64,000 nucleotides of DNA, taken from Chloranthus sessilifolius (Eukaryota; Streptophyta; Magnoliopsida; Chloranthales; Chloranthaceae). Both the position numbers and the translations under genes were made by a program. The stretch spans positions 1,804,001 to 1,868,000 of the forward strand of contig CM037591.1 of the NCBI GenBank assembly GCA_021018995.1, in the 5' to 3' direction. Below are positions 2,846 to 64,000 of this stretch, one piece after another. Under the pieces are notes generated by a model. It did no database searches. It saw only the letters and a list, made by a program, of their open reading frames with translations, and was not told the origin of the DNA. Within the stretch, counting starts at the first letter, position 1. Each line of letters starts with the position of its first letter.

Positions 2846-2927
2846 GTTAAACCAATCTCTACATTAATCTTTATGAAAGTAAGCTAAGATATCAATAGTT
2901 TCCTGAATTTTGATTCAGTATTAGGTG

Positions 2928-3509: not shown

Positions 3510-3723
3510 GAGACTGCGTTTGGGATTGTTCTTTGGAGGCAAAAAACAGCCCACCTAGAAGAGCAGGTTTAAATTGCTCTTTTAAAGAGAACCAAATTCA
3601 GCTTTTTCACTTTCCAAACGAGCTAAGAGCACATGGAACCAAACAAAGTCCTAAACTAAAGTGCTCGGCTCCAAAGCTGAGAGATGCACTTTGCCTCTAA
3701 AGAGCAATCTCAAACATAGCCTA
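3510..3723. mobile_element. MITE with long inverted ends
   Basis: The left end ('gcgtttgggattgttctttgg') and the right end read on the minus strand ('atgtttgagattgctcttta') are imperfect inverted repeats of about 40 bp around a ~215-bp non-coding body. The ends resemble the 'tgtttggga' ends common in plant hAT MITEs. The same element is present in the right arm at about 8072-8305, so it was there before the inverted duplication. Confidence 0.55.
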
Positions 3724-4457: not shown

Positions 4458-4734
4458 ATGACAGCCTTTAAAAGCAGTTTGATTCTTAAAGGTTTTTCCT
4501 GTACATCCCCATTTCGCAATTCTTGTTCGGTCTTTTCGACACTGAAAATGTGCAGTGCGCTTCGATTAGTATCTCGAGGCGTTACGAGCAATCAAATCCA
4601 GTGCAACGCATCAGATTCAGGTTATGGGGGAAAGAACGTGTCGGCTCGTCTATCGCAGATGCAGCAGATTCTGCAAGAGGCTGAAAAGAGGTCTCTTTCT
4701 GCCAGCAACGAGTCGGCCCCGAAAATTACATTAG
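4458..4734 (+). pseudogene. ICT1-like peptidyl-tRNA hydrolase, exon 1 (left arm)
   Basis: Starting at ATG 4458 the frame gives a Ser/Thr/Arg-rich N-terminus typical of an organelle-targeting peptide, then ASDSGYGGKNVSARLSQMQQ and LQEAEKRSLSASNES..PKITL. This resembles exon 1 of plant ICT1-like proteins (class I release-factor family, GGQ-domain peptidyl-tRNA hydrolases that rescue stalled organellar ribosomes); the GGQ catalytic domain would be in later exons, which are absent. The exon-intron boundary is readable by comparison: the right-arm copy has TTGG|GTATGA, while here it is TTAG|ATATGA, so the donor GT has become AT. The reading frame is intact, unlike the other copy. With no downstream exons and no donor it is a broken copy. 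The family assignment rests on recall of this N-terminal motif. Confidence 0.6.
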
Positions 4735-4960
4735 ATATGAGAATGAACTCTCTTTTTCAATTATATAATGAAATTAATGTGTCTTTTATTGTTTCTAGTT
4801 TCCATTGTATATGATTCTCCTCCAATTCGTTTCATTGGGATAGTTTGATGTTATGTTTTTAAAATATGATAGAATGATTACATGTGAATTCGGAAAAATC
4901 TGCTGAATTAGTGGATGCTTCTGATAAAGATTAGACGTTTTATTTGGGTTGGAGTGACGA

Positions 4961-5239
4961 TAGAATTGATTCAATGTGCATAAGATTTACAATATCATGT
5001 CACAGCGTTTTCATCGCATTTATTTTTGTGAGTTTGAAAGGCCCTACTTATATCTCATGTAAGAAGAATCTCTTATCTGTTTATATTATGAGCTGATTTT
5101 GATCATAGTCAATGCTATCAAAATCACGTTAGATTGTAAGACCATAAGAGGAACAATTTGGATCACATTTTAAATCGGAAGATTTATTTTTATTTTTTAT
5201 TTATTTTTATTTTTTTTCCAAAAAACAAAAATCAAAACA
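4961..5239. other. Palindrome spacer, no gene
   Basis: AT-rich sequence between the left duplication arm and a CACTA-like terminus. No coding or repeat signal recognised. Confidence 0.4.
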
Positions 5240-5984: not shown

Positions 5985-6841
5985 GAGACTACCAAATGTT
6001 GTAATATGACATGTGAATCGTGACTTTTGAGTCCAAATATTTTATGTTCTCTTACGTTGATACGCCTTGCTATGTTAGAGGAGAAACCATCCGGTAATTT
6101 CAAACTTGCCATGACTCTACAAACATCTATTTTTCGTTTTTATAGCATGCAAATGGTAGATAAGCTCGTTTTCTATCCGTCTGCCACTGTGGATGAAGCT
6201 CATGTCTCACCTTCATGCGTTCTAAATCAAGACGGTCCATTAAACTATCCTTTGTTTTTCCTTCAAGATTCAACAAAGTCCCGAGAATATTATCACACAC
6301 ATTTTTTTCAATACGAATAACATCCAAATTGTGCCTAAGTAAATTGTGCTCCCAATACAATAATTCAAAAAATATACTCTTCTTCTTCCAATTATATGGC
6401 ATGTTATCATTCTCTGTGCATCGTGATCTTTTCCTCACAGGTCGCTTCCCAAAATATGCATACTGTTTTGCAACTAATTCAACACCTCTATTCCAGACAA
6501 GGGAATTGGAGTTAGTCTAAACTCTACACTACCATCAAATGAATTTTTTCGATTTTGAAATCTTGATTTAAAGGCAAGAATCAACGATGACCCATATAGC
6601 ATCTTTTTCTTCCATGAGATAGATATAAGCTAGATGTGTCCTTATGGCATGAAGGACATGACAATTTTCCTTTTGTGCTCCAACCAGACAACACTCCATA
6701 GCTGGGGAAGTCACTTATGGTCCAAAGCAAGGCTGCATGCAATTGAAATCTCTCATCCCTCAAGGCATCATACATCTCCACCCCTAATTCCCACAATTCT
6801 TTCAACTCTTCTACCAAAGGCCTCAAGTATATGTCAATATC
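5985..6841 (-). pseudogene. CACTA (En/Spm) tnp2 transposase, central/C-terminal fragment
   Basis: Translated on the minus strand this gives tnp2 (Transposase_21 family) blocks in the correct order: DIDIYLRPLVEELKELWELG, HAALLWTISDFPSYGVLSGW, GKLSCPSCHKDT, LSHGRKRCYMGHR, then after an in-frame TGA FLPLN, FFELLYWEHNLLRHNLDVI and NVCDNILGTLLNLEGKTKD, then in another frame LKLPDGFSSNIARR and GLKSHDSHVILQHL. It is the transposase of CACTA elements, acting in the nucleus on its own terminal and subterminal repeats. Internal stops, at least one frame change and loss of both ends make it non-functional. The first recognisable residue falls at 6841, exactly the inner boundary of the right duplication arm. 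The N-terminal part of a tnp2 in the same orientation is at 11128-11982. Confidence 0.85.
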
Positions 6842-7064
6842 ATAACTCCAACTCAAATAAAACAACTAATTTCTATAGAAGCGTCCACTATTTCAGCATA
6901 TTTCTCTGAATTCACATGTAATCATTTTATGATATTTTAAAAGCATAACAGCAAATTATCCCAATGAAACGAATTTGAGGAGAATCATATACAATAGAAA
7001 CTAGAAACAACAAAAAGATACGATAATTTTAATATATAATTGAAAAAAGAGTTCATTTTCATAC

Positions 7065-7341
7065 CCAATATAATTTTCGGGGCCGGCTCGTTGCTGGCAG
7101 AAAGAGACCTCTCTTCAGCCTCCTGCAGAATCTTTTGCATCTATGATAGATGAGCCGACACGTTCTTTCCCCCGTTGCTAGAATCAGATGCCTTGCACCA
7201 GATTCGGCTGCTCGTAACGCCCCAAGACACAAATCGGAGGGCACCGCACATTTTCGGTGTCGCAAAGATCGAACAAGAATTGCGAAATGGAAATGTATAG
7301 AAAAAACCTTTTAGAATCAAATTGCTTCTGAAAGTTGTCAT
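7065..7341 (-). pseudogene. ICT1-like peptidyl-tRNA hydrolase, exon 1 (right arm)
   Basis: Second copy of the exon at 4458-4734. From the ATG at 7341 it reads MTTFRSNLILKGF, the ASDSSNGGKNVSAHLS block, then a TAG where the left copy has CAG (Gln), then on in frame through MQKILQEAEERSLSASNEPAPKIIL to a canonical donor (G|GTATGA, intron starting at 7064). So this copy keeps the splice donor but has a nonsense codon, the converse of the left-arm copy. No later exons are present nearby. Confidence 0.6.
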
Positions 7342-8996
7342 TTATGTGGAGTTCAGTTTTTCGGTATGAAGAAGTCCTAGGAGTGGAAGATAATTATTAA
7401 ATGCTAGAGATAAAAATAATAAATAAACAGATTGAAAAAAGAGATGTTATGAAGAGAAAAAGTGAAAAAAAGCAAATACAAATAGCACCCTAGAAACTCA
7501 GTTTAGATCATCTTCTTGGTCCGTTCAATTTCTAATTACGAAAAATTATGTTAAACAAAACAAAAAATATGAGTTTAGTACAGACAATCAATTTATAGAT
7601 TCTTGTTGCAAAAACTGATGGTGAAATTAATAAGTGCTAGTAAAACCCTAGTATTCAAACGAGCGAATGCATGAATTTAAACTATGAACTATGAATTTGA
7701 GAAAGAGAGCAACCTCCGCCAGGGACAGAGGGTGAGAGCTAGCTTATCGAGTGAGATGGTCCAAAGGATTTCAAATAGTTGTGCACCTCTCGATTGCATC
7801 AGGAGATTGGCGGGAGCACTGAGGAACCTAATTTGTCTATATTTTGAAGCCAATAAGTAATCTTGTCAGTTGTGCAGTAAGTGGACGTTTAGAAAAGCAC
7901 GGGTTTCAGTAGCATGAAAATATGTGTACGTCTCGAGGTCCACATAAGTGTATAGCTGACAAGATATCAACACACTCATTGTCGAAGATGAGTCTGCATT
8001 GAGTAATTGGCTCAATCGAGCTTAGTTTGGTGGCTCCGAATTGTTCGGAAAATGTCACTCTCCGAAGAAAGCACTAGGTTGTGTTTGAGATTGCTCATTA
8101 GAGGCAAAGAGCAGCTCTCTGCTCTAGCGCAGAGCACTTTAGTTTAGGACTTTGTTTGGTTCTATGTGCTCTTAGCACTTTCAGAAAGTGAAAAAGCTGA
8201 ATTTCGTTCTCTTTAAAAGAGCAATTTAAACTTGCACTGTTAAGTGGGTTGTTCTTTGCCTCCAAAGAGTAATCCCAAACGCAATCTCAGCTTTTGAGAA
8301 ACTAAGGCTGTGTTTGGCAACGTGACAAATGGGAGCACGTCCCATCCATTGCTTGCTTCCCTACAAGTGAAGGAAATACATGATTTAAATAAATATAAGA
8401 TCTTTAAAAAATATATCTAAAACGACTAAGAAAGTGCATATTTAGAATGTTGGTAGATCCAACCAATCATTAGTTCTTAACCATGGGATGAATGAAATTC
8501 GATACATGATGAATAAAAGAATTGAAAAAGCTTTTATTTTGTTGCTTAAGTTATAGAGCGATTCGTGAACTTAAAAATCAAATATAAAAAACTCTTTGTT
8601 ATTTAAAATAAAATAACCACTCGTTGAGGATAAGAGACTACACCAAACAAACAAGATAAAAAGCTCGCTTAGCAATATGCCACTGTTAGAGCCTAGCTCC
8701 TAAAGGCTTGACCATAGCTATTAGTCAGGTGACCGCTCCCAATGTTGTTGTTTTGTAGACTAGTTTATTCCAAAAGATACAAAACTATAAACCCTCCACT
8801 CTACAAATGTGATGCTCTAACGTCTTAGCAAGGCAAGCTCACCTAATACTGAATAAAAATTCAGGAAACTATTGATATCTTAGCTTACTTTCATAAAGAT
8901 TAATGTAGAGATTCGTTTAGCCTAAACTACAATTTCTATATTCCCTTCTTGTTAATACCCGTCATATGCAGGTACCACCCCCTAGCACTAGCTGTC

Positions 8997-9524
8997 TGTC
9001 ACGCCCCGTGCGTAGCACCGAATATTTTCCACCATATTTGTACTATATACAATATATGTATATAGTACAGATTCATAGAATATACTAAAATAGTAGAGTA
9101 ACTAGGGAGGCTCCATGGAAGATTCTAGACAAGAAAAGTCTAGACTAATGGAAGAAAGTAGAAAATTAGGGAGAGAACTTGGAAGAGGGTAGAACCCAAG
9201 ATTAGTGTGAAAGCTTCTAGAGAAAACTCTAGAGTATTCCACTATTGTTGGATTTTTGGCACATGTATAGATCTTATATCGTTAATTGTACATAGGAAGC
9301 CTATAAATAGGCAATAGGGTCTTATTTGCAAGGCACCTCCGAAATTGTAAAGTATTCTTGAGTTTAATACAAACTTGTTCTTTGCATTCCCTCTCTTAAG
9401 ATCTCTTCTACTGTCTCTTAGTCTCTTTGCGAGTTTTCGGAGTTAGGTTGATCTTGCGACGCTAGGGAGCGAATAAACGCAAGAGCCGCACGGATAGTCG
9501 AGGGGCGATGCTAGGTCCGTGACA
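8997..9524 (+). mobile_element. Solo LTR splitting the right arm
   Basis: The insertion starts TGTCACGCCCC and ends GTCCGTGACA (TG...CA ends), 528 bp, with no internal domain. The left arm preserves the uninterrupted site (minus strand of about 2762-2776: 'agctgccgctgttc'). The flanks are 'ctgtc' on the left and 'tgccg' on the right, so the likely duplicated target is 4-5 bp with one change. Inside are a TATA box in CCTATAAATAGG (9302-9308) and AATAAA near 9472. It inserted after the inverted duplication formed. The family is probably a Ty3/gypsy or Ty1/copia element with a short LTR; I cannot tell which. Confidence 0.8.
9302..9308 (+). promoter_or_regulatory. TATA box of solo LTR
   Basis: TATAAAT within CCTATAAATAGGC about 306 bp into the LTR, a usual position for the U3/R boundary promoter of an LTR of this length. 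Confidence 0.55.
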
Positions 9525-9525
9525 T

Positions 9526-9974
9526 GCCGCTCACCAAATAGGTGTCGGGTGGTGTGCACTCTTCGTGGGATCGATGAATTACGAACCTCAGAAAAGGCTC
9601 TCGAGCCCGAAGTCAATCACATTGAATTTGTTATAAGAGATGCTCGGACCCACTTGTTAAATGGCTATAGAGGAGCCAATTTTGTGCTCATAGATTGTAC
9701 CTTGGAGGACCATGAAGGGGTCTATCGAGCAGCACAAGCGGGCGGGAGCCTTCGTGTGGCTTTCGTCGTTGGCTATAATGTGTTTTACAAGGGATTGGGG
9801 TGGAGAGGGGGTTCGAGGACGAATTTGTTGCCTATCAAAGATGGCTTGCAGGTGACTAGGGTGCAGGCCAGTGGTGGTGCAAGGAGTCGTCGGGTTGTTA
9901 GAGTAGATCAGTGCACTAGGGAAGAGCATGTCTTTAGAATTATATCTCCACAAAGGAAAGTGGTTGAAGCTTAG
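9526..9974 (+). pseudogene. DUF1442-family protein, 3' fragment (right arm)
   Basis: Homologous to 2323-2745. It reads from a truncated start just after the solo LTR through VVCTLRGIDELRTSEKALEP (about 9548-9607), then EVNHIEFVIRDARTHLLNGY, RGANFVLIDCTLEDHEGV, VVGYNVFYKG, LLPIKDGLQVTR and VVRVDQCTREEHVFRI to the stop at 9974. It is about 150 residues against 200-230 for the family. It keeps the CT(R)EEHVFR tail that is shortened in the other copy. The solo LTR sits at its 5' end but entered sequence already lacking the N-terminal region, because the left copy, without the LTR, is truncated at the same place. Confidence 0.72.
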
Positions 9975-10168
9975 GATTATTTGCCCTTTAGTCCTAGTTT
10001 TGAATGTTAGAGCTATAAACAGAATTAAGCAGTGTGATGCATTGTAAATAACTAGGTACATAAATCACCCATCAACAATGACTTCTAGTATTTTTGATGG
10101 GTCTATTATTGTTATTGTTTATTTTTATTGGATAATGGTTTGATTGAAGGAAACAACCATATTGATAA

Positions 10169-22805: not shown

Positions 22806-24759
22806 TATGATGTTCCTTCGTTAGGCAGTGTCTTCTTTAAGACATTATCAGGGTCTTCTTTAAGACATTAGGGTTTAAGAATTTATTTCTTTTCTTATTT
22901 AACTTTTATATAAGATGCATCGTAGAAGTATGAAACAAAATATTAAGATAACCAATTAATTATTCGTGGTTGTATTCTCCGTATCAATCCGAGTTGGATA
23001 ATCCTTATATATGTAGGATGGCTTCACATATAGTTGCGTTATGAGTGCTGATACAATTATATTAGTATGCTACTCTAATGGGCTATTTAATCTTTATAGA
23101 GTTGGATAGTACCTTATATGTTAATATATATAGGCTTCGCATGCAGGTGCATTATGAGTACTGACACAGTTATACTAGTATGTCACTATAATGGGCTATT
23201 GAAAGTTCAAGAAAATAATATGATAAATAGTGGCGAAAAATATAAACAGAAATCGATAAGCCGGGATGCAACATATAATAAATTTATGGGAAAGATGTAT
23301 GAGTTGTGTTACTCAATATCGGAGCGGATGGATCTAAGGTTTAGATATAGATACTTGACTACCGAAGAGAGTTTTATTTTTGACATAGACAATGAGACCG
23401 ACTTTCATGACATGATGACCCTATACCCAATTGACTATCCTCACATTGTCCTATATATTTCTTAAAAGACCGCGGAGTAAAAAAAGTTGAACGAGCATAC
23501 AAGAAAGGAAAGTCTAAATACTGGAATGCTAGGGAAGTATGTGCTAGTAGATTAGAAGTAAATGCAACTAAATTTGTTTGGTAGTCAAGCATTTCATGTT
23601 TTATGTTGCTTATTTGATAGTGAGAAACCCGATAGCTCGCAGAGTAAAGGAGTTGGATGTAATGAACGACACAACCTGTACTTAGACACAGTGAAGAAAT
23701 GAGAGGAAACAAAGATATTTAGGTAAATCGATGAAATTATATGTATGTGCTTTTATTTAATATTAATTAAAAAATTATCAATAAGTTGATTGACATACAC
23801 TGGTATGCTTTTGATCGTAGAATTGCTCATGACTGCATATTTCCTAATTCAAGAGCCCATTAAAGTCACCGATCGTGCAATCAATATGACCCATGACAGT
23901 GATTATTTTACATAGTTTTTAGTTTTTCGTCCCCTGTTGCCGAAAAAAAGGGTGAACAGAATACCAATTTTAGGTGGGTTGGTGTGTCAGCTCGAATTTC
24001 GGCACCCCGAAACTCGTGCCATCAGCACGATCATCTTGACCGTGCCCCTTAGCTGTGCACGGAACATTGGTATATCAAGCAATGAACTAAATTGAAAAAA
24101 TAAATAAACTGCAGAATTAAATTATCATATAAGTATTTCTCAAAAGACAGTTCTACCTTCATGCCTCTGCATGAATGGAGAACCGATCCGAACCACCGAT
24201 GATAGCTAATCATCGCAGATGATTCGCCCAAAAGAATAATTCCAAACTCTAATTACATTGTTTAACCAAAAACAAGGCTTGGCATACCAAGCCGTACCAA
24301 TAATCTCACAAAAACCCTCAAAGCTGCACAACGGAGTCCTCTAGAAGAAGTCCTCAGGAGGTGGCTCCAACTCGTCTCCAGGTGCAAGGTCCGACTCACC
24401 GGGGTCAACGTCACCTGAAGCCTCGGCAGCTGCTAGTAATGGACCTGCGACGTATAGTCTAAAGGGTGAGTTACATCCTAGCTCAATAGGGAACAGAACA
24501 CAGTTGAACATATAAATTACCACTCACATATATTCCATGATATGCCATGCATGATGTGTCTATGCAGTTACTGATGAAAAACAGTTGAAAATAATCACAT
24601 TTCACTGGTAGTTTACTCATGTCTTTTACTTATTCATGAATGATGCCGAGAAGGCCTAAAATAAAACTTAAACTTTCAACTTAAGTAATCCCCGAGCAAT
24701 ATAGCATCAAGCCCCGATGAGATACCCATTATCGTCATCTATATAGACAGTTTTAAAAG

Positions 24760-25105
24760 TATTCCCTGGGAATACAAATAGTACCAAAACCCCTTTCCCC
24801 TGGGGATTGGTGGCGGGGTTTCACTTATCTCAACACAACACCCCTGGGGTGTGCTTTACGCATGTCTGGATAAGCCTCGTCTTGGCCTCACGGTTTCATT
24901 GCGTATCAGTCCGCGGATATCCAAACCTCAAATAACAAAAATATCAGGTGCTTTACATATAGTTATTCACCGTGTAAGTGTGCTATCTTATATCAGTTAG
25001 GCCCTATCAGATATAATTCAATCTTGGATACATCCCTGGGATGTATCCATTCACTTGCATCATACCTGATGCTCTTATTTCTTTACTTCCTCATCCCCTG
25101 GGGAT
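24760..25105. repeat. CCCTGGG hairpin series in solo LTR
   Basis: Five short perfect or near-perfect palindromes share a CCC(C)TGGG(G) centre with different arms: GTATTCCCTGGGAATAC (24760), CCCCTGGGG (24797), ACACCCCTGGGGTGT (24837), TACATCCCTGGGATGTA (25029), CATCCCCTGGGGATG (25092). The arms change while remaining self-complementary. Confidence 0.85.
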
Positions 25106-25427
25106 GGCTCATTATAATTACTCTTATAGATGTCACACACACACACTTTTCACAAACTCTTAAGCAATAAAAACAGTTTGAATTGAATTCTATATCACTA
25201 CATACATGCTCTGGCAAAATAAAGTACATGTTCAAGGTGTTTCCTACCTCAAGTCTTTGTTTGATCATGCATCAAGGTCCCACGTGGCTCCTTGTGCCCA
25301 AGCTCACATGTACCACCTATGGTACCACATAACACATGAAATACATCACTAAAGATGTAACAAAGAAGGTCCAAGACCCTCCAAGAATCTTAAAGTCAAA
25401 CTCAAAAGTCAACAAAAATTGGCACAG

Positions 25428-25880
25428 TCGATTAATCAAACTCTAAAATCGATTAATCGAATCTGATTCGATTAATCGAAATTCAAAATCGATTAATCGA
25501 TTCTAAAATCGATTAATCAAAATTCTCATTCGATTAATCGAATCCCAATTCGATTAATCGAAATTCTCCATTCCTTCCAGTCGATTCTCAATTCGAGTAA
25601 TCGAATTCTCAAAATCGATTAATCGATCCCAAATTGACTAATCAAAATTCTAAATCGATTAATAGAACTCTCATTTCGATTAGTCGATTTCTCCAAGTCC
25701 TTTCTTTCCCTCCACTAGAGTTCACTGTAGGTTCCCAGTCGATTAATCGATACCCAAATCGATTAATCGAAATTCAAAGTCGATTAATCGAAACTCAATT
25801 CGATTAATCGAGATCTGGGTCCTCTGACTTTTCAACTTCTTGGCCAAAATCGATTAATCGAATCTCAATTTCGATTGATC
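25428..25880. repeat. Array of palindrome TCGATTAATCGA in solo LTR
   Basis: About eleven exact copies of the 12-bp palindrome and about seven one- or two-base variants lie at irregular 15-30-bp spacing over about 450 bp, in two clusters separated near 25690-25735. Spacers are short and non-identical, so this is not a simple tandem repeat. Confidence 0.9.
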
Positions 25881-28800
25881 GAAATGGTCAGATTCAGCCT
25901 CTTTTGGGTTGTTCTTCCTAATCTTTTTCCTTTCTCTTTCCTTCATTTTTCTAAGCCTTTATCCTATACTTTAAACCATTTCTAACTACAATCTAACCTT
26001 TCAATCTATGCATTTAATCTACAAGAATTTTACCTTCAATCAATCTCAAATTGATTTAAATCAAGTGGTTGGAAAGGCTAGGGTTCTAGCGTTGGCTTGA
26101 ACGGATCCTTCGCGTTGAATCAGTCTCTTTAATGCTTGAATCCCCCTTCCAGTCACCCACAATAATTCCTTGCTGAACCCTTCTTTTACTCTTCTCTCTC
26201 TTCTTTACTTCTCTCTCAACAACCTAAACATGCAATTTAGGGTTATCAAACCCTTTTATCTCTCCTCTAACTTGTGTGTTGAGCACATGCACCGCGATAG
26301 GTGTATGTGACTTCACATTTACATCACACACTACATAGTCAATGAATTTATCACATCTCCTCCGTTCATCACACTCTATGCTAACTATTGAACTCCTATT
26401 TGGTCAAACATGTGACCAATCGGCACGGATCTCGAAGTCACTGTTTAACGTGATTTTTAGGGATATTACAATTGGTCTCCCATTTCCTTGGAAAAATGGT
26501 AGTTTTATTAATGTTAATGAAGACTCACATCCTTTGGTTGATACCTATGAGTAATTTTGCAGTTTCGAGCATTCACGTCTATTTCCACATCCCCTCCCCT
26601 ATACTCGTATAGAGGAGAAAATAATTGAAGAGGGGCTAGTATATGAAGACTCAAATTCGATAAAAAATTCTTCACAAACTCAGAGCTGACTCTGAATTGA
26701 GTTTTTACATAATCATGTGTAATATTAAAGTGCATATCTTACGTATGAGTGACACATTATATATTTATTTTAATTAAAGGAACAAGAGTGCTCCGCCATC
26801 GAAGACATGGGTTTTCGATTCAGTTATTACCCAGAATTATAGTATCGAGGTACTATCAGGAGAGATGAGATTACTGAATATACGGGCTCAGATAACGACT
26901 CGAGTTATTAAGTCGGATTGGGATTCCAGGGATGAATTATTGGGAATAAATCAAAAGATGCAGACTTCGAAATTAAAGATGATAACTTAGAAGGAGAGAG
27001 TTCCGCAAGGAAGTCGAGATTTGATAGGATTGGAAATACATCTTTGACTGTCAAAATTTTTTTTCTTCTCGAGAAGAATTTATGACTGCCTTAAAGAATA
27101 ATATTATGTTGGAGAACTTTCAATTGAAACCAATAAAGACAACCAAGTAGATTATTGCTGCTAGATGTGCGGATAATATTTGTCGATGGAATATTCGTGC
27201 GAGTAGGGGCAACGTTGGTGGCGATTATTTCGTAATTAAAATAATAAATCCCAAGCACAAGCACGGTCTACTTAGTGTAGCTATGCAAAAAAGGGAGGTC
27301 ATCGACAAGCCTCAAGTGATTGGGTATCTTCTAAAATAATAAATATGTTGATGGATGCTATTGATTATGCGCTTGTGAAATTATCTATGAAATTCAAACA
27401 AATTGGGGGGTTATAATAAGCTATCGTAAAGCGTGAAAGGCGAAAGAGATAGCGTTGGCTAATATTAGGAGTGGTTGGGAGTCGTCTTATGCTAATCTCC
27501 CTTCATATATTACAGAATTGTGTAGATCCGATCCCGATGCCTTCATGACACTACAATATTTATATGATGACTCCTTCATTAGATTTTTTTAGGCATTTAG
27601 TCCCTCTATCGATGGATATAGAAGAACGTTGAGGCCCATAATTTCAATTGATGGAACACACTCAAAAGGTAAATTTTCCTGCTCGATGCTAATTGCGACA
27701 ACTGTTAATGGCAACAACAATTTATTCTCTATTGCTTTTACTGTAGTTGATGGTGAAACAAAAGATGCTTGAGAATGGCTTTTTCAATATCTTCAAGAAG
27801 CAATCATGGATGATGAGAGAGCAATTATCATAATTTCAGACTGTACGAATGCAATTAGATCGGCGGTTCTAAAAGTATTTTCAAATGTCACTCATAGATT
27901 TTACTTCTTTCACATTGCCAAGAACTTCAGGGAGAAGTTTAGGAATCTGACTTTGTGGAGTCAACTCTGGCCTATTGCTCTGACATATACCGTAAAAGAA
28001 TATGATGAGCTAATGACGAAACTTGAGAGTGTGAGCCCTGCTAGTGTAAAATATCTTTGGCAGAATGAACCATGGAGGTGGTCTAGAGTGCTCTTCCCTA
28101 GTCATAAATACAATCTTCTGACTACAAATATGTCTGAGTGTTTAAACAAAATCGTAGTTCGTGCCAGAGGTCTACCAATAATAGCCCTTATTAAAGCAAT
28201 AGGAAGAAAATTGCCAAACTTGTTCATGATAGAGCTATAAAAGGTCAGAAGATGTCGAAGGGTTTAATCCCATATGCATCCGATATCTTGGAAGAGGCTA
28301 ACGAAGTAGCTAGGTTTTGTCAAGTTCTACCATCATCACCCAACATTTTTGAGATATTAATGTCAATATTTAAGTATAATATACATTTAGATAAGAGGTC
28401 TTGTTCTGTTTTGACATTTTGAGCCTCCCTTGTATCCATGCCATGGCTGCCATTCGTTGGAGTAATACAGATCCGTCGATATATTGTTAAGAACGGTATA
28501 TATCTGTATGGTACTGTGAGACATATAATAAGGTAATCGAACCAACTCTAGATAAATCTCAATGGCACGTCAAGCATGTTAGTCTTGTTATTGACCCGCC
28601 ACACTGTAGGAACCCTCTAGGTCGACCATGAAAAAAAAGGTTAAAATCTGTACTAAAAAGAAATGGAGAATGCATTATACAACTTGTAAGCAGGAGGGAC
28701 ACAATCGTTCAACTTGTCAAGGACCACAATCAAAAAAATGTAAAATGAAATAATTAATTTTGCTAAGTGAGATGTCTTGTAATAAATAGAGTATTCAATC

Positions 28801-29079: not shown

Positions 29080-31310
29080 CTCTCATATAAGTCCTTTATT
29101 GTCTGACAGCAGCACTTTATTGTCTCATATCAGTTCTTATAATGTCATCAACTCTACCTATTTTTACGCACTCATATGTCTGAAGGTGGATCTTGTTTAG
29201 ATATTCGGGTTTCTTTTAAAAGTAAATTGAGAATGATAAAACCCCTAAGGCAAATGAAAAGTTGACGAGGGAATCAATCGTTGAACTTGACAAGGATCAT
29301 GGTAAAAAAAATACAGAAAAAAATTACGAAAATTTCTAAGTGACAAACTTATTGTAATAAGTAGGTTATTGAATGAGAAAAGTGGTGAGAAATATATAAA
29401 ATATTATAATAAGTATATCGTTGGACAATGTATAACTTCTATGAGTCTCGTGTTACTCATTATACGACCATCGTACTTTGCTATGTTATTGGATAATTCA
29501 CAATTCTTTTTCTCTGATGTGTAATATATGTGGATCTCTGTATAGTCTCACATCAGTACTTTATTGTCTGATATCAGTCATGTACTGTCTCACATTAGTA
29601 TTTTATTGTCTGATATCAGTCCTTTAATATTCTCACATCAGTCTTATATATATTTAGAAAACTTTACTCATGCAGGTCAGAATATAGTTTATTGTTGAAA
29701 ATGAGTCTAATATCAATCATATACTGTCTCACCACATGACTTTATTGTCTGATATCAGACCTCTAATGTTCTTACATTAGTCCTTTAATGGTTAAGATAA
29801 CTTTACTCCTATAGGTTAAAATATTATTGAAAGTAAAATATGAGTTTGATATCAGTCATGTACTGTCTCACATTATAACATTATTGTCTGATATCAGTAA
29901 AATATAGATTCAGATTACTCATGCAGATTAGAATATAGTTTAATGCTGAAAATAAGTCTAACATCAGTCCTATCTTATCTCACATCAGTACTTTATTGTC
30001 TGATATCAATATTTTAATGTTCCCATATCAGTCCTTTATAGAATCAGATAACTTTACTTATGTATGTGACAATGTAGCTTAAAGGTAAATATGAGTCTGA
30101 TATCAATTCTGTCTTGTCTCACATCAATACTTTATAGTCTGATATCAGTCATTTAATGTTTCAGATAAAATTAGTTATGCCTGTGACAATATAGTTTGAA
30201 GCTAAATATGAGTCTGATATCGGTCATTTACTGTCTCACATCGATACTTTATTGTCTAATATTAGTCCTCTAATGGTCTGATATTAGAAACATTAAATGT
30301 CTGATATCAGTCCTCTAATAGTATAATATCAGAAATATTAAATGTCTGATATCAAACCTTAGAGGACTGATATTAGTCATTTAATATTTCAGATGACTTT
30401 ACTCATGCCTGTGACAATGTAGTTTAAAGGTAAATATGAGTCTGATATCTGATATCAGTCCTATCTTCTCACATCAATACTTTATGATCTGATATCAGTC
30501 ATTTAATATTTCAGATAAAATTAGTCATGCTTGTGATAATATAGTTTGAAGCTAAATATGAGTCTGATATCAGCCCTTTACTGTCTTACATCAGTACTTT
30601 ATTGTCTGATATCAGTCCTTTAATGGCCTTATATCATAAATATTAAATGTCTGATATCAATTCTCTAATGGTTAGATATAAAAAATATTAAATGTCTGAT
30701 ATCAGACTATTAGAGAACTGATATCAGTCATTTAATATTTCAGATAACTTTACTCATGCCTATGACAATGTAGCTTAAAGGTAAATATGAGTCTGATATC
30801 AGTCATGTCTTGTCTCACATCAGTACTTTATGGTCTGATATCAATTATTTAATATTTTAGATAAAATTAGTTATGCCTGTGATAATGTAGTTTGAAGCTA
30901 AATATGAGTCTGATATCAGTCATTTACTGTCTCATATCAGTACTTTATTATCTAATATCAATTATCTAATGGTCTGATATCAGAAACATTTAATGTCTGA
31001 TATCAATCCTCTAATTGTCTAATATCAGAAATATTAAATGACTGATATCAGACCATTAGAGCACTGATATCAGTCATTTAATCTTTTAGATAACTTTACT
31101 CATGCATGTGATAATGTAGCTTAAAGGTAAATATGAGTCTAATATCAGTCCCGTCTTGTCTCACATCAGTACTTTATGGTCTGATATCAGTCATTTACTA
31201 TCTCACATCAGTACTTTATTCTCTAATATCAGTCCTCTAATGTTCTCACATCAGTTATTTAATGTATTATAATGTCTTATATCGATCTCATATTAGTCGT
31301 CTAACATCTT
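29080..31310 (+). repeat. Palindrome-rich array 1 (CTGATATCAG), upstream of Ulp1 gene (+)
   Basis: More than 2 kb of degenerate repeats of a ~45-bp phrase: 'tctcacatcagtactttattg' followed by 'tctgatatcagtc'. CTGATATCAG is a perfect 10-bp palindrome and occurs dozens of times. From 30085 on there is a higher-order repeat: the marker 'taaatatgagtct' recurs at alternating spacings of about 117 and 225 bp, a ~345-bp unit in at least three copies. The array ends about 120 bp before the start codon of the gene at 31431. The first ~330 bp after the transposase (28746-29080) contain nothing else recognisable. Confidence 0.9.
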
Positions 31311-36404: not shown

Positions 36405-37261
36405 TGTGACAGCCCAGATTTCGGCACCCCGAAACCCGTGCCATCGGCACAGCCCTCGAGGTCGTGCCCCATATTGTAAGTGCGGAACACTTGGTACATC
36501 CCATTCATAATATTAAATAAAAGAAAATAATACAAAATAACTCTCCATTTCTACAGTACGTTAATCCAAAAATACATGTCCAAAAGATAGCTCTAATTTC
36601 ATGACTCTGCATGAGCAAAAGAATCAACCCGAACCATTAGTGTCGTAACTACAGTCACTCTCAATGGTTCGACAAAAGAATATTACATATACGTTTACCC
36701 TTTCAAAAAAAATAAGGCTGGACGTACCAAGCCGTAATTCTCTTTTCTCTTTACAAAATACTATCAAAATACGCAGCGAAAATCTTCTAGAAGAATCTCT
36801 CCGGAGGAGGCTCAGTCTCCTCCCTAGGAAAGTACTCCGAATCATCGAGATCACCCTCGTCTGTAGCAATTCCTACATCCTCATCAATTTCTAAACCGTC
36901 ACCTGTGACATATAGTCAAAGGGTGAGCTACATCCTAGCTTAATAGGGCAATATCACAGCAAGTATATCCATTTTACAAACATATATTTCATGACAAAAA
37001 TAAACATGCTTTCATAGTTATATCATTTCTTGAAAAATAACTTTAAGATGTGACAAGATAATTTGACTACTTTTATCATTCTGATCGTGCATTTCTTTCA
37101 ATGATTACTAGTTTCCTTAGTTGCAACCAGGCTGAGATCTTGACTTAAATCTTAACTTAAATAATTCTTGAGCAATATAGCATCGAGCCCCGATGAAATA
37201 CCCTCCATCGTTATCTAATCAGACTATTTTTCATAGAATTGTCCTCGTCCCTGTCTCTTAG

Positions 37262-37560
37262 GTGACGAGCTTAATACTACTATACATCCCTGGGATGTCT
37301 GCTGGTGTATGAATTAGCCACGATGTCAATCCACGGATATCCCGCCACACAATCTTCTGAACCTTAAATCTAATTGTGCAATAAATATAGTTATTCACCA
37401 TGAATTTGTGCTAATAGATAATAAAACTCAGCCCGTGCATTCATGTTTACTGTTTATCTCTTTAACATGGATCTTTTATCCACCTCACATCCCTGGGATG
37501 TCACGCTGTCTATTGCATCACTGCGATGCCTGTGTGTTCTTGCATCCCTGGGATGATCTT
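37262..37560. repeat. CCCTGGG hairpin series in 3' LTR
   Basis: ACATCCCTGGGATGT at about 37265 and 37489, GCATCACTGCGATGC at about 37515, and CATCCCTGGGATG at about 37542. The second kind has a changed centre (CTGC) but keeps GCATC/GATGC arms. In the other LTR the first has decayed to 'acatcctcgatgt' (43930). Confidence 0.8.
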
Positions 37561-37914
37561 TCTCTTACTTAATGAATTCCTCTTTTACTTGCGTAAACAC
37601 ATGCACTATTGCCATTTACTTTATGCTTTGCATTAACTATAACTCAACAAAATTTAATGGAACATGCATCTTACACTATCACTACATATGGGTTTGTAAT
37701 ATAGCATACTAGTTAGATATTCCCCTACCTTACATGCATCTCGAACCTTTGAATCCTCAAACCCGATCCTACTATGAGTAACTCAACGGTTCGGCTTAAC
37801 CTAGGCATGATCAACATATGCAAAATATCATTACAATATTTAAACAGTGGGTCAAGAAGCCTAGGTTCAATTACCATTCATTTTCAAACTAAACTAGACT
37901 CCAAAGCCTAAATT

Positions 37915-38250
37915 ACTCAAATCGATCGAACGATTTTCAAATCGTTCGAACGATTCACAAAATCGTTCGAACGGTTTCTAAATCGTTCGAATGAATTTCA
38001 TATCGTTTGAACGGTTTCTAAATTGTTCAAACGAATTTTATTTCGTTCGAACGAATTCTCCTTTTTCTTCTTTATCTTCTGAGCAAACCGTTCAATTGAT
38101 TTTTTTATTTCGATCAAACGGTTTCCAAAATCGAACGAATGAAATTCAAATCGTTCGATCGATTTACTCAGAAACCCTTCTCTCTTTTCAAATCTTCTCC
38201 TCAGGCCAAATTCGTTCAAACGGTTTGGAAATCGTTTGATCGAATTTGCC
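37915..38250. repeat. Array of palindrome TCGTTCGAACGA in 3' LTR
   Basis: At least a dozen exact or near copies of the palindrome TCGTTCGAACGA (variants TCGATCGAACGA, TCGTTTGAACGG, TCGTTCAAACGG) over about 335 bp, in two clusters, at the same relative place in the LTR as the TCGATTAATCGA array of the solo LTR. The corresponding block in the 5' LTR is at 44545-44815 and lacks a few units. Confidence 0.88.
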
Positions 38251-38881
38251 TGTTCTCAGCTTTGGATCGAGTTCATCAATTCTTGAACTCCTCCAACCCT
38301 TCTAAAACTTCACCAATCTCATGTCTTTATACTATATTTATATATATAAACATATTGCTAAATCAAACTAATTTTAAAGAATCTCTTAAGAAAATTTAGC
38401 TCACCTTCAACGGTTGGATCCTTTGATCCCAAGTCTGATCTTACTAGGGTTTCTCAATCTCACAATTAAAACCTCTCCTCGATCCCAAGCTCTATCTGCT
38501 AGTTCTCCGAGCCAAAGTCAATAATTTGCATTCAATACAATCGCATGATTTCTCATATATACTCTCCCACTCTCTCTCTCTCTCTTTCTCTTAACTCTCC
38601 TCTTAACTACTCAATCAAAAGAAATACTTTATTTCCCTTTCCCTTCTTCCTTATAACCTATCCATTTGTCTTGGTGTTAAACACCAACATCTAAGGTACA
38701 TGTGTGTGTGTGTACATACATAAGGATACTCAATCCATCTAAAGGGTGAGTTTATATTATACACCTCGTATACCTACGATTGATAAGTCGACTCTGTCAA
38801 AGGTGACCCGTCAAACACGTGACCAGTTGGTCAGCATCCCGAGGTGAACCATTTAAAATACAAAATTTCTGGGACGTTACA

Positions 38882-38894
38882 TTCACCCCTCCAT
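38882..38894 (-). promoter_or_regulatory. Polypurine tract
   Basis: On the sense (minus) strand ATGGAGGGGTGAA directly precedes the 3' LTR. This is the RNase-H-resistant primer for plus-strand DNA synthesis. Confidence 0.7.
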
Positions 38895-39074
38895 GGGAAT
38901 TTCGTCCCCGAAAATGATACGCAAGAGGGGCCTCCCCCACACCCCAGCATGGGTACACGTGGGACTTAGTTCAAATACCCATCCTGCATGAAGTACATGT
39001 AGTCACAAAGAAAACAGCCACACATACAAAATAGATAGCTAAATTGGAAACACATTCACCAACATAAATACAAT

Positions 39075-41464
39075 TTATAGACAAGAGAAAACAAAAATGC
39101 AGTTATACAGTGTCAAGTGGCAGTCATGCCACGATTGGTCAAGAGGAACATGTCCTCGGCTACCTGTGTTTGAGACATACTCTGCTACGTCGTGTTTGAG
39201 ACCTCTCCACCAGTAGCTCCTACGCAGATCTTGATACATTTTGGTACTACCCGGATGGATGGCGTACTTTGACTTGTGTGCTTCATCCAAAATAGTCTGG
39301 CATAGACCGGCATCAATCGAAATACAGAGGCGTCCCCTGAATAAATAGGAACCGTCCTCCCGTATAGAGAAATCCGGTCGAGTCCCCCCCATCACTTCCT
39401 TTCGAATCTTAACCAACTCGACATCTTTCATCTGTAATTCGTGTACGTGTTCGAAGATCATTGGCCGAACTGAAATATTGGCCAACAAGGTACCTGAAGC
39501 TTGTACTTCTATCATCGCATCATACATTGACAAATCTTCGAACAATTTCCACCTGTGCATTCCCAGTATCAGGTTAGTCAATTGAGCCGAACCTTTCCCA
39601 CTCAAAGCATCGACGACCACATTAGCCTTGCCGGGATGATATTGGATAGAGCAATTATAATCTTTGAGAAATTCCATCCACCTTCTCTGCCTCATGTTTA
39701 GCTCTTTCTGTGTAAATAAATATCAGAGGCTTTTATGGTCCGTGAAAATCTCAAAGGTCTCTCCATACAAATAGTGTCGCCAGATCTTCAATGCGAAAAT
39801 GACTGCAGCGAGCTCGAGGTCATGAGTCAGGTAATTCTTTTCATGGTCCTTCAACTGTCTCGACCCATAAGCAATCACCTTTTTATACTGGTTTAGCACA
39901 CAACCTAAACCACTATGAGAAGCATCACTATAAACTGCAAAACCTCCACTGCTTGAAGGAATTGCAAGTACCGGGACTGAGGTCAGTCGCTTCTTCAACT
40001 CTTGAAAACTTGCTTCACACGCATCGATCCACTCAAATCGCACATCTTTTCGTGTGAGTCTGGTCAGTGGCCCCGATAGTTTAGAAAACCCTTCCACAAA
40101 ATGTCTATAATACCCGGCTAGACCAAGGAAACTACGTACCTCGGTGACCGTCTTTGGTTGTTCCCACTGCACGACTGCCTCAATCTTAGTAGGATCCACC
40201 GTGACACCATCTTTTGAGACAACGTGTCCCAAAAAGGTAACTTCTTCTAACCAAACTCGCATTTACTGAGTTTGGCGTATAATTGGTATTCACGTATTGT
40301 CTGTAGAGCGGATCTCAAATGTTCCTCATGTTCTTTCCTTGATTTGGAGTAGATGAGGATATCATCGACAAATACAACTACGCAAGAGTCCAGGTGTGGT
40401 TTAAACACCCGATTCATTAAATCCATGAAGGACGCCGGCGCATTCGTCAATCCAAACGGCATCACTAAAAACTCGTAGTGTCCGTATCTCGTCCTAAAAG
40501 CAGTCTTTTGAATGTCTCCTGCTTTGACCCTGAGCTGATGATATCCCGACCTCAAGTCGATCTTTGAAAAATACTTGGCTCCCTGTAGCTGGTCAAACAA
40601 ATCATCTATCCTTGGCAACGGATACTTATTCTTAATAGTGAGTTTATTCAACTGACGGTAATCAATGCATAACCTCATTGATCTGTCCTTCTTCTTAACA
40701 AACAAGACCGGCGCACCCCAAGGGGATACACTAGGTCTGACAAACCCCTTATCTAAAAGTTCCTGCAATTGTTCCTTCAATTCTTTCAACTCGGTCGGAG
40801 CCATTCTATATGGCGCTTTAGAAACCGGCTCCGTTCCAGGTGCCAAGTCTATAGCAAACTCCACTTCTCGATCCGGTGGTAAGCCTGGTAATTCCGCTGG
40901 GAATACATCTTCAAATTCGCACACCACTACGATTTTCGTAATTATATTCTTTCTTTCCTTGTCATCCTTCAAGAAGGCTAAGTAACCACTGCATCCATTC
41001 TTGATTAGGCGCTCAGCCTTGATGGCGGACACAAGTGGTAGGAATTTTGTTCGTACTCCAACAAATCGAAATGATCTCCTAGTATTCAGCCTAAAGATGA
41101 TAATCTTACTTTTGCAGTCAACCGTTGCACAGTGTTTTGACAACCAGTCCATGCCAAGGATTACATCAAATCCTTGCATGTCTAACATAATCAAATTTGC
41201 TGACAACTCAAAAACCTCTCCATCTTTAACAGCTACCGTTACTGACTTGCAGATTAAGTCTGCATTCACTACTGGTCCATTTGGAACTGTCACAGCCAAG
41301 ATGAAATCTAATGTCTCTGGCTTGATCCCCATCCTTCTTACAAATCGAGGAGTAACAAACGAATGAGGAAACCCTGGGTCTATCAACGCTCTACCCTCGT
41401 ACGCTCCACGGCTCTCTTTCCCATATACAAATAAGGTACCTATAGTGTACATACATCTTATCAC
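39075..41464 (-). pseudogene. Gypsy pol relic: protease, RT, RNase H, integrase start
   Basis: From 41464 the frame gives the aspartic protease ([11 protein letters not shown], later DVILGMDWL) and reverse transcriptase ([49 protein letters not shown] with the catalytic Asp pair). A one-base frameshift at about 40255 follows KCEF. RT thumb and RNase H continue in the new frame ([53 protein letters not shown]) to an in-frame TGA at 39723. Then come [20 protein letters not shown] and the integrase H2C2 start ([19 protein letters not shown]). After about 39180 the sequence is unlike integrase: the catalytic core and C-terminal domain are deleted, so the element cannot encode its own integration. 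Confidence 0.88.
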
Positions 41465-41469
41465 TTCAC

Positions 41470-41640
41470 TCGGGTTACTGACTTAAACATATTATTCAAG
41501 TGTATATTATTCAAATGACCAACAAAACTCTTAATTTATAATTAATCTAACCAAGAAAAATATACTATTTTTCGACTAATTCATTGTAAATGTTGAATTT
41601 GATAGCATGCTAATTAAACTCAAGTAGAACTCACCTTGAA
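41470..41640 (-). other. Intron-like AT-rich gap between gag and protease
   Basis: After NDIIQG the sense strand goes GTGAGT, then about 170 bp of very AT-rich sequence with no gypsy homology, then returns to the protease frame near [13 protein letters not shown] donor is clear; several AG acceptors are possible (for example AAG before ATG 41464). Either a spliced intron or a small insertion. Confidence 0.35.
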
Positions 41641-41707
41641 TAATATCGTTGGAGTTATGAGCTTCCTCTGCCATGACTGCATAAGTTCTCCCTTGTACAA
41701 CCGGTCT

Positions 41708-42958
41708 CTAAGCCTGTACGGTTCGTGATGCAGAAGCAGAAGCTATTCTCCCTTTGCTCATCTCAGGGCAATCCTTTATTATGTGGCCTAGTTTCCCACA
41801 TCGGTAACACCCCTGCATTCCCCTTCTACAATCGACTGTTCTGTGAGGCTTGCCGCATTTGGCACAAGTCTCCTTTGGAGTAGAGGAAGCTGCCCGAGAG
41901 ATGCCTTGAGTAGCAGATACTCCGGTGGTGGCGGTAGGGTTCCCATATCGAATCGGTCTCACAAACACGGACGTAGGTGGTCTAGAGAAATTTGTATACG
42001 TGCCCTGTCTAGGGAGTGGAGTCGTCGTGGTAAATCTCGGCTTTTTGTTCCCCGAGCTATACTCACTTCCTCCCCCTTAAGCTGTTCATGCCCCGTCGTG
42101 TTGATCTCGTCTCTTGTACACCCCATATATATCCCTCTCGGCTACAATGGCTTTTCCCATCACATCCGCATAGAATTCTAGTTCAAAGATTGACACTCTT
42201 TCACGGATGTTTGGTCTTAAACCCTCTGCAAATTTAGCCGCCTTCATGATTTCTGTAGATGCTAGCTCCGATGCAAATCGAGACAACCGCGTGAACTCTA
42301 CACCATACTCTCTGACTGACATGCCTCTCTGTTGTAAGTTTGCGAACTCTCTCCTCATCTGGACTCGCACTTGCTTAGGGAAGTACTCCCTATTGAACTC
42401 CGTTACAAATTCTGTCCAAGTCCATAGACGGTGAGGGTCTTCAACTTCTCTTCTCCTCAGCACAGACTTCCACCACGGATCGGCATCTCCCTCCAACTGT
42501 AAGGAAGCCCATCCTACCTTCTCACTTTCTGTACCCCGTAGTCTGTCTAGAAGCTTTTCAATTTGATTCAACCACTTCTCTGCTTCTAATGGGTCCGTCT
42601 GTCCATAGAAACTAGGAGGTCTCAATCTCTTAAAATCTACAAAAGATGATGGCAACAATGCTGAAGGAGGTGGTGGTGGTGGCTGATGACTGTTGGTGTT
42701 ATTGACGTTATTCGCCGCCAATAGTGCCGTCTGCTCGGCCAATATCGCAGTCTGCTGCGTCTGCTAAGCCATCGCAGCAGCCATAGTCTCCATAGCCAAT
42801 GCGATCCGGTTAGTCGTTTCACTCCTCTGTTCTCCTTCTCGGAAATTTTCCTGGTCTCTACTACTAGACCCTGCCTGAAATCTCTCGTCACCGCTCTGGT
42901 TTCTATTCTGGGTACCTCTCGGTCGACCCCATCTTTCAGAAGACATCGTGCTCTGCAT
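41708..42958 (-). pseudogene. Gypsy gag relic with CCHC zinc knuckle
   Basis: The likely start is ATG 42958 (MQSTMSSERWGRPRGTQ). An in-frame TAG at about 42764 follows METMAAAMA. The retrotransposon gag domain follows (RLRPPSFYGQTDPLEAEKWL, WASLQLEGDADPWWKSV, WTWTEFVTEFNREYFP, FANLQQRGMSVREYGVEF). Two close stops occur near 42080-42088, then the same frame goes on to the nucleocapsid knuckle CYRCGKLGHIIKDC (about 41790) and another stop at 41708. Gag forms the virus-like particle; with four stops in one frame this copy is dead. Confidence 0.88.
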
Positions 42959-43037
42959 GTGAAACCAAAGTTTCGTTAGCAGAAGATCCCTTCACTCCAA
43001 CAAAATCTAAGACTTTGTCATAAATTCTAAAGAAACT

Positions 43038-43050
43038 GCTCTAATACCAA
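43038..43050 (-). promoter_or_regulatory. Primer-binding site (tRNA-Met type)
   Basis: On the sense strand TTGGTATTAGAGC lies just inside the 5' LTR, matching the usual TGGTATCAGAGC site with one change. Confidence 0.8.
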
Positions 43051-43051
43051 C

Positions 43052-45449
43052 TGTGACAGCCCAGATTTCGACACCCCGAAACCCGTGCCATCGGCACAGC
43101 CCTCGAGGCCGTGCCCCATATTGTAAGTGCAGAACACTTGGTACATCCCATTCATAATATTAAACAAAAGAAAATAATGCAAAATAACTCTCCATTTCTA
43201 CAGTACGTTAATCCAAAAACACATGCCTAAAATATAGTTCTAATTTCATGACTCCGCATGAGCAAAAGAACCAACCTGAACCATTAGTGCCGTAACAACA
43301 GTCACTCTCAATGGTTCGATAAAAGAATATTACATATACGTTTACCCTTTCAAAAAAAATAAGGCTGGACGTACCAAGCCGTAATTCTCTTTTCTCTTTA
43401 CAAAATACTATCAAAATACGCAGCGAAAATTTTTCAGAAGAATCTCTCCGGAGGAGGCTCAGTCTCCTCCCTAGGAAAGTACTCCGAATCACCGGGATCA
43501 CCCTCGTCTGTAGCAATTCCTACATCCTCATCAATTTCTAAACCGTCACCTATGACATATAGTCAAAGGGTGAGCCACATCCTAGCTCAATAGGGCAATA
43601 TCACAGTAAGTACATCCATTTTACAAACATATATTTCATGACAAAAATAAACATGCTTTCATAGTTATATCATTTCTTGAAAAATAACTGTAAGATGTGA
43701 CAAGATAATTTGACTACTTTTATCATTCTGATCGTGCATTTCTTTCAATGATTACTAGTTTCCTTAGTTACAACCAGGCTGAGATCTTGACTTAAATCTT
43801 AACTTAAATAATCTCCGAGCAATATAGCATCGAGCCCCGATGGAATACCCTCCATTGTCGTCTAATTAGACTATTTTTCATGGAATTGTCCTCGTCCCTG
43901 TCTCTTAGGCGACGGGCTTAATACTATTATACATCCTCGATGTCTCTGGCGGTGTCTGGATTAGTCATTGCATGGTCATCCGGATATCTCTGAACCTTAA
44001 ATTGAATTGTGCAATAAATATAGTTATTCACCGTGAATTTGTGCTAATAGATAATAACACTCAGCCCGTGCATTCATGTTTACTGTTTATCTCTTTAACA
44101 TGGATCTTTCGTCCACCTCACATCCCTGGGATGTCACGCTGTCTATTGCATCTCTGCGATGCCTGTGTGTTCTTACATCCCTGGGATGATCTTTCTCTTA
44201 CTTAATGAATTCCTCTTTTACTTGCATAAACACATGCACTATTTCCATTTACTTTATGCTTTGCATTAACTATAACTCAACAAAATTTAATGGAACATGC
44301 ATCTTACACTATCACTACATATGGGTTTGTAATATAGCATACTAGTTAGATATTCCCCTACCTTACATGCATCTCGAACCTTTGAATCCTCAAACCCGAT
44401 CCTACTATGAGCAACTCAACGGTTCGGCTTAACCTAGGCATGATCAACATATGCAAAATATCATTACAATGTTTAAACAGTGGGTCAAGAATCCTAGGTT
44501 CAATTACCATTCATTTTCAAACTAAACTAGACTCCAAAGCCTAAATTACTCAAATCGATCGAACGATTCACAAAATCGTTTGAACGGTTTCTAAATCGTT
44601 TGAACGAATTTTATTTCGTTCGAACGAATTCTCCGTTTTCTTCTTTATCTTCTGAGCAAACCGTTCAATTGATTTTTTTATTTCGATCAAACGGTTTCCA
44701 AAATCGAACGAACGAAATTCAAATCGTTCGATCGATTTACTCAAAAACCCTTCTCTCTTTTCAAATCTTCTCCTGAGGCCAAATTCGTTCAAACGGTTTG
44801 GAAATCGTTTGATCGAATTTGCCTGTTCTCAGCTTTGGATCGAGTTCATCAATTCTTGAACTCCTCCAACCCTTCTAAAACTTCACCAATCTCATGTCTT
44901 TATACTATATTTATATATATAAACATATTGCTAAATCAAACTAATTTTAAAGAATCTCTTAAGAAAATTTAGCTCACCTTCAACGGTTGGATCCTTTGAT
45001 CCCAAGTCTGATCTTACTAGGGTTTCTCAATCTCACAATTAAAACCTCTCCTCGATCCCAAGCTCGATCTGCTAGTTCTCCGAGCCAAAGTCAATAATTT
45101 GCATTCAATACAATCGCATGATTTCTCATATTTACTCTCTCACTCTCTCTCTCTTTCTCTTAACTCTCCTCTTAACTACTCAATCAAAAGAAATACTTTA
45201 TTTTCCTTTCCCTTCTTCCTTATAACCTATCCATTTGTCTTGGTGTTAAACACCAACATCTAAGGTACATGTGTGTGTGTACATACATAAGAATACTCAG
45301 TCCATCTAAAGGGTGAGTTTATATTATACACCTCGTATACCTACAATTGATAAGTCAACTCTGTCAAAGGTGACCCGGTCAAACACGTGACCAGTTGATC
45401 CGCATCCCGAGGTGAACCATTTAAAATACGAAATTTTTGGGACGTTACA
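43052..45449 (-). repeat. 5' LTR of gypsy element
   Basis: 2398 bp, near-identical to 36405-38881. Differences include loss of about 60 bp of palindrome units near 44565, a shortened and altered segment at 43930-43990, and scattered transitions. Sense start TGTAACGTCCC at 45449. Confidence 0.92.
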
Positions 45450-63930: not shown

Positions 63931-64000
63931 GGAATACATATAACAACTGTCTAGTTAGACGACGATGGCGGGTATTCCATTGGGGCTCGATGCTATATTG

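Follow-up and report, generated by a model that had tools for sequence, protein, structure and literature searches.

The window, by which we mean the whole 64,000-nucleotide stretch of Chloranthus sessilifolius DNA analysed here, contains three related long LTRs, each carrying an array of perfect 12-bp palindromes with a period of ~20-22 bp and a core specific to its family. The first is a solo LTR on the minus strand (23983-26470), with TG..CA ends and flanks, GTTGG and ATTGG, that match at four of five positions. Its array (25428-25882, minus strand) holds 18 units when up to four mismatches are allowed, the definition of a loose unit used throughout, and an exact string search finds the core, TCGATTAATCGA, 11 times between 25449 and 25850, in line with the original count of about eleven.

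The second type of array lies in both LTRs of a Ty3/gypsy element on the minus strand (36405-45449), identified by its Pfam order (gag, protease, RVT_1, RNase H, Integrase_H2C2), its LTR pair and its target-site flanks (CTCAC and CTCGC, matching at four of five positions). The 3' LTR (gypA, 36405-38881) and the 5' LTR (gypB, 43052-45449, delimited by comparison of the pair and by its sequence ends) are 93.1% identical over 2483 bp. Between them (39075-42763, minus strand), Pfam matches gag, protease, reverse transcriptase, RNase H and the zinc domain of integrase, spread over several interrupted ORFs, and the LTR is reached shortly after the zinc domain (38881-39200). The five internal minus-strand ORFs of at least 120 aa correspond to gag-pol; two plus-strand ORFs have no Pfam match. 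Since the five minus-strand ORFs yielded no integrase core when searched, the element appears to have been shortened internally or to be otherwise incomplete. The sequence adjoining gypB resembles an initiator-Met primer binding site, and a possible Tekay/Del or Athila lineage is suggested only by the long LTR, the primer site and the ORF order. Both arrays have the core TCGTTCGAACGA, exact at 37942, 38043 and 44616: that of gypA spans 37922-38243 (minus strand; 14 loose units, 2 exact) and that of gypB 44555-44816 (minus strand; 11 loose units, 1 exact), the outermost units lying outside these ranges. The gypB array is three leading units shorter than its partner, and such a difference between two LTRs of one element indicates that the arrays change length quickly.

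The third LTR, in plus orientation, is incomplete because it extends past the end of the window. Its array (63078-63270, plus strand), with the core TCGCTCGAGCGA exact at 63149 and 63215, has eight loose units, two of them exact, at steps of mostly 22 bp, and a block at 63677-64000 (plus strand) is homologous to positions 24697-25012 of the solo LTR. The distance from block to array is 407-416 bp in both LTRs. By blastn, gypA and the solo LTR are 63.9% identical over 851 bp; the solo and third LTRs are 65.1% identical over 605 bp. Among 40 scored of 1,966 candidates, the third LTR has 39 further relatives at 85-94% identity, 12 of which were aligned; in L160 and other copies of this type the last array units hold CTCGCGCGAG, another palindrome, which is 10 bp long and has its centre shifted. 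We refer to the families by their inner bases, as ATTAAT (TCGATTAATCGA), TTCGAA (TCGTTCGAACGA), CTCGAG (TCGCTCGAGCGA) and TCA, the last being a type with the core TCAATCGATTGA that emerged outside the window.

To ask how far these words exceed chance, we counted them in the 2.17-Gb genome (32 contigs, including C15 of 95.7 Mb and C16 of 6.0 Mb), with the reversed word, likewise a palindrome and of the same composition, as control. TCGATTAATCGA occurs 241,617 times (55 for the reversed word), TCAATCGATTGA 64,441 (79), TCGCTCGAGCGA 30,274 (141) and TCGTTCGAACGA 3,664 (78), so that the window words exceed their controls ~47- to 4,400-fold; a fifth, TCGCATATGCGA, occurs 1,284 times (8), and was looked at as arrays in two places. 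These counts and the exact strings bear out the original description of palindrome arrays whose cores differ between LTR types. The consensus offered with it, TCGNYNNRNCGA, fits the three window types and neither TCAATCGATTGA nor TCGCATATGCGA, and the outer TC..GA alone is common to all five. Homogeneity within LTRs, also claimed, describes the solo LTR (11 of 18 units exact) and was overstated for gypA (2 of 14), gypB (1 of 11) and the third LTR (2 of 8).

The TCA type emerged unplanned when we surveyed 19 10-kb loci, taken at round coordinates and hence not strictly random, in which TCAATCGATTGA (36 copies, at least two in each of five loci) and TCGATTAATCGA (23 copies) are the commonest 12-bp palindromes. 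Across the window and these loci there are 58 pairs of 12-bp palindromes that differ at no more than two bases and lie 14-70 bp apart, as against none in each of five Markov-resampled sets. We also ranked, blind to palindromy, the 12-mers that recur at distances of 15-70 bp between differing flanks. Of 131 such words in the sample the two highest are palindromes, as is the highest of 68 in the window, and the palindromic share (2/131 and 2/68) compares with ~0.0005 by chance. Together the four palindromes account for ~340,000 exact copies in this genome, which points to strong and repeated selection for symmetric sites in the control regions of retrotransposons.

The main evidence for conservation of the core is the comparison of units within an array. 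Identity between units is 0.69-1.00 in the core columns, partly inflated by the fact that units were located via the core, and 0.27-0.57 in the 12 flanking columns (six per side) of the ATTAAT, CTCGAG and TCA families. The TTCGAA flanks give 0.34-0.62 in 9 of 12 columns and 0.77-1.00 in the other three, in a small set of 82 comparisons from three arrays, two of them the LTRs of one element. The low linker values and the share of exact units, 92 of 170 in ATTAAT, are independent of how units were found. Alignment of 13 third-type copies gives a diversity of 0.079 for cores, 0.084 for linkers and 0.045 for sequence beyond the array; with CG/TG/CA columns dropped, the values are 0.040, 0.073 and 0.039, respectively. 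In copies this young, variation in the core is thus only modestly below that in the linkers and no lower than that beyond the array. One copy of this type (L162) is missing from the list of oriented arrays, and hence from all unit-based counts (flank and linker, G:U, compensatory change and within-array identity).

That core columns are kept and most linker columns are not argues against plain duplication or slippage of whole units, and conservation confined to the core argues for a two-fold symmetric protein site. The pattern stops cleanly at the core in three of the four families and is less clean in TTCGAA, which supports the dimeric factor named at the outset as one possibility. Spacing is regular: 19-22 bp in 106 of 139 steps in ATTAAT, 22 bp in 81 of 106 in CTCGAG and in 35 of 63 in TCA, and 19-21 bp in 17 of 19 in TTCGAA. 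The first flanking base extends the palindrome above control in TTCGAA (0.59 v 0.34) and in none of the other three families; in CTCGAG some farther columns exceed control symmetry, such as the third base (0.60 v 0.44).

Compensatory change, by which the symmetry had been proposed to be kept, shows no clear excess within families. ATTAAT has five compensatory both-sided changes (2.8 expected) alongside 13 non-compensating ones and 100 one-sided changes, and the other three families have 0, 0 and 0 (0.5, 4.9 and 0.7 expected) and 17, 113 and 41 one-sided changes; one-sided changes thus predominate, and within families the outcome named beforehand as refuting the proposal is the one observed. 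Across the genome, units with position 5 changed stand beside an exact TCGATTAATCGA 5,866 and 5,725 times on the two strands, and never in the reversed pattern; among the 100 such units listed, two also show the corresponding change at position 8, and the list repeatedly contains TCGACTGTTCGA, a unit that is not a palindrome. TCGACTGTTCGA also recurs at 83-bp steps beside TCGATTAATCGA units (for example, G000:C1:229221-229335). Symmetry kept by compensatory change is thus not supported within families; between families, the cores differ as whole palindromes. Because they differ in this way, divergence between families looks like replacement of the whole site of an array rather than stepwise mending.

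In all five sampled loci with TCAATCGATTGA arrays (L133, L139, L143, L145 and L147), a TATA word starts 30-32 bases after a unit; other TATA-like words are found at +3 in L133, at +5 in L139 and at +10 after an internal unit in L145. L145 has the domain order of a Ty3/gypsy element, with RT_RNaseH_2 at 9547-9900 and Integrase_H2C2 and rve at 8530-9057, both on the minus strand, and this order of RNase H and integrase is the basis on which L145 alone of these loci was typed. Its arrays lie between pol and further ORFs, and these ORFs have no convincing Pfam match.

Genome-wide, TCAATCGATTGA stands 14-44 bp before TATAWAA in 2,267 and 2,113 matches on the two strands (0 for the reversed pattern), TCGCTCGAGCGA in 281 and 286 (0) and TCGATTAATCGA in 1,501 and 1,595 (1 and 0). 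Among the 100 matches listed for each word, which are the first on chromosome 1 (plus chromosome 2 for CTCGAG) and include copies that are not independent, the gap is 27-32 bp in 76 for TCAATCGATTGA, where a flat distribution would give 19.4, and in 60 for TCGCTCGAGCGA, 41 of these at exactly 30; TCGATTAATCGA does not fall in this class (16 of 100, p 0.84), with 36 at a gap of 34. Eleven hand-picked TCAATCGATTGA-TATA spacers have a median similarity ratio of 0.6, and with spacers so diverged several subfamilies seem to be involved. Units near a TATA word are a small share of all exact units (4,380 of 64,441 for TCAATCGATTGA, 567 of 30,274 for TCGCTCGAGCGA and 3,096 of 241,617 for TCGATTAATCGA). 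In the LTRs of the window the TATA box is not settled, gypA having one that gypB lacks. An earlier placement of the window arrays downstream of TATA was withdrawn, as the TATA words are not common to gypA and gypB (position 321) or across families.

These features lead us to favour, on balance, the view that the arrays are clustered regulatory sites for predicted DNA-binding proteins that act as symmetric dimers, with whole-site replacement between families. Each 12-bp core would be a candidate site for one symmetric dimer, consecutive dimers would face the same side of the helix owing to the two-turn spacing (19-22 bp), and linker sequence would be under little constraint. Each retrotransposon family may have settled on a core of its own, which would then have spread and been kept through its array. 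For the part of the TCAATCGATTGA units in which the nearest site lies ~30 bp before TATA, the array could serve as a promoter-proximal regulatory element with a putative effect of activation or of recruitment against silencing, and the arrays of the window LTRs may have the same role. Several points count against this view. No one half-site fits all families, so that a host factor shared by all of them would have to be loosely specific, unless several factors exist. The TCGATTAATCGA gap outside the 27-32 class, the small share of exact units near a TATA word, the unsettled TATA box of the window LTRs and the symmetry of farther flank columns in CTCGAG weigh on the same side.

Sites of this general kind are familiar from viruses. 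Papillomavirus E2 sites and EBV oriP comprise two-fold symmetric sites of at least 12 bp that are repeated for a dimeric protein, and in E2 sites the outer part is fixed and the inner bases vary. The arrays described here are likewise repeated two-fold symmetric sites, but for the viral ones the binder is a known viral protein. A search of viral contigs gave no relatives of the two element proteins, nor anything that fits the CTCGAG pair pattern. Among transposable elements, VANDALs are DNA transposons with motif arrays of their own.

Among the open-access papers listed, judged by titles and the beginnings of abstracts, none deals with palindromic LTR arrays, and the nearest known systems in the passages available are VANC-motif arrays and Retand tandem repeats. 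In Arabidopsis VANDAL transposons, arrays of the VANC21 motif YAGTATTAY run in a single orientation, and the main text of that report has no word beginning with "palindrom" or "dimer" (PMC5735166). As described there, VANC motifs resemble the units here in being short, family-specific and dense in non-coding parts of the transposon, and in changing together within arrays by tandem-repeat formation while differing between families (PMC5735166). They differ in that VANDAL elements encode their binding protein, whereas none was found in the ORFs searched here, and in that VANC motifs keep a single orientation, which the units here, perfect palindromes in LTR retrotransposons, do not share. Retand elements, Ty3/gypsy elements of plants, likewise have short tandem repeats that are family-specific and non-coding, but these lie in the internal region, between pol and the 3' LTR, rather than in the LTRs; a domain of the antisense ORFs is considered probably able to bind DNA, and the two uses of "palindrom" shown are in a reference title (PMC11963269). 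Palindromes and plant LTR retrotransposons also meet in a weak palindrome preference at insertion sites (PMC6911290), which concerns the target rather than arrays inside the element. The passages of these three papers contain no symmetric sites arrayed in LTRs.

A more specific form of the dimer-site model, which we regard as possible but doubtful, is a lock-and-key promoter system of plant LTR retrotransposons in which the array of each family would be read by its own cognate protein. Families would diverge by swapping whole palindromes at the same promoter place, ~30 bp before TATA in the listed matches of TCAATCGATTGA and TCGCTCGAGCGA, in an arms race like that of VANC and VANDAL with symmetric sites. 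If a cognate protein exists, retrotransposon expansion would be linked to a specific regulator, and shifts in specificity between element and host, or between elements, could be tested with short DNA probes.

We think it unlikely that the palindromes act in RNA instead, where neighbouring units would pair in the transcript as 12-16 bp hairpins, or units of two genomic RNAs would pair for dimerisation or packaging, and where self-pairing would tolerate sequence change as long as the palindrome persists. Folded arrays did beat dinucleotide shuffles in five of five cases (z -4.9 to -10.6), an outcome for which the palindromes alone suffice. Complementarity of the linker bases next to the core exceeds that of non-adjacent controls in ATTAAT (0.61 v 0.42), in TCA (0.57 v 0.34 at the first base, 0.67 v 0.38 at the second) and in TTCGAA (first base, 0.65 v 0.33 in a small set of 17 pairs), but not in CTCGAG. 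Shuffling within linkers weakened the fold, with z<=-1.64 in 17 and z>=1.64 in 2 of 41 arrays (49 less eight near-duplicate third-type copies), and mean z was -1.46 in ATTAAT and -1.82 in TCA, but there was little effect in CTCGAG (-0.23) or TTCGAA (-0.26). We relied on this measure because permuting linkers (22 arrays, mean z 0.15; z<=-1.64 in two, z>=1.64 in one) preserves each linker's own ends and is thus blind to the closure of neighbouring units. Sense-strand changes that preserve G:U pairing are not favoured, with 50 tolerated and 85 not, the wrong direction for an RNA role, in a set that omits 5 of 49 arrays as unorientable and includes a few weakly oriented arrays and non-independent copies. 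The lack of a clear compensatory excess within families and the position of arrays before TATA in the TCA loci also speak against it. Evidence on the hairpins originally suggested is therefore mixed. The complementary linker ends seen in ATTAAT and TCA are not expected from DNA binding and count against the DNA-site reading; our first choice is a dimer site in DNA, with a role in RNA ranked second.

It is quite improbable that the arrays are a useless by-product of mutation, in which palindromes stall the copying enzyme and cause template switching, so that palindromic units expand fastest and displace the rest. Unit number does differ in whole steps between copies and between the LTRs of one element, and of 41 complexity-filtered minisatellite rows in the sample and window, 21 have a period of 19-23 (nine more have 40-45). 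Template switching should copy linkers along with cores, yet most linker columns approach randomness where cores are kept; arrays also contain a recurrent unit that is not palindromic, and the model does not predict any favoured distance to TATA. More symmetric than shuffles (0.05) are 6 of the 21 rows of period 19-23 (5 of 12 outside the window) and 4 of the 20 of other periods (0 of 8), so that not every 21-bp array is palindromic. Least probable is a role as methylation or heterochromatin targets, with unit CpGs recruiting silencing: of the four main types, the three in the window have 2, 3 and 3 CpGs per unit but TCAATCGATTGA has only one, and CG/TG/CA columns are equally variable in core and linker (0.115 v 0.118 in 13 third-type copies), indicating that CpGs are not specially kept and are unlikely to be the conserved feature once suggested.

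The window contains other repeats as well. Inverted blocks of a minisatellite with 21-bp units and the core TGATATCA lie at 29541-31255 and 50085-51261, roughly 66-78% similar, near a MULE transposase fragment (27773-28240), beyond which the ORFs searched around these arrays gave no convincing Pfam match. We rejected them as a further type of palindrome array, as TCTGATATCAGA occurs only 242 times genome-wide against 98 for its reverse. A looser version of the arrangement is seen in L134 (5569-5901, 7166-7246 and 9868-9962), where 21-22-bp arrays have inverted-repeat units, several of them centrally gapped (GAAGC..GCTTC). An inverted duplication (2312-4962 and 6838-9985, 88-91% identical) contains DUF1442-like frames, of which one passes the Pfam cut-off and the other falls short of it, and positions 52457-55816 are taken up by a long array of tandem repeats, each roughly 210-380 bp in length.
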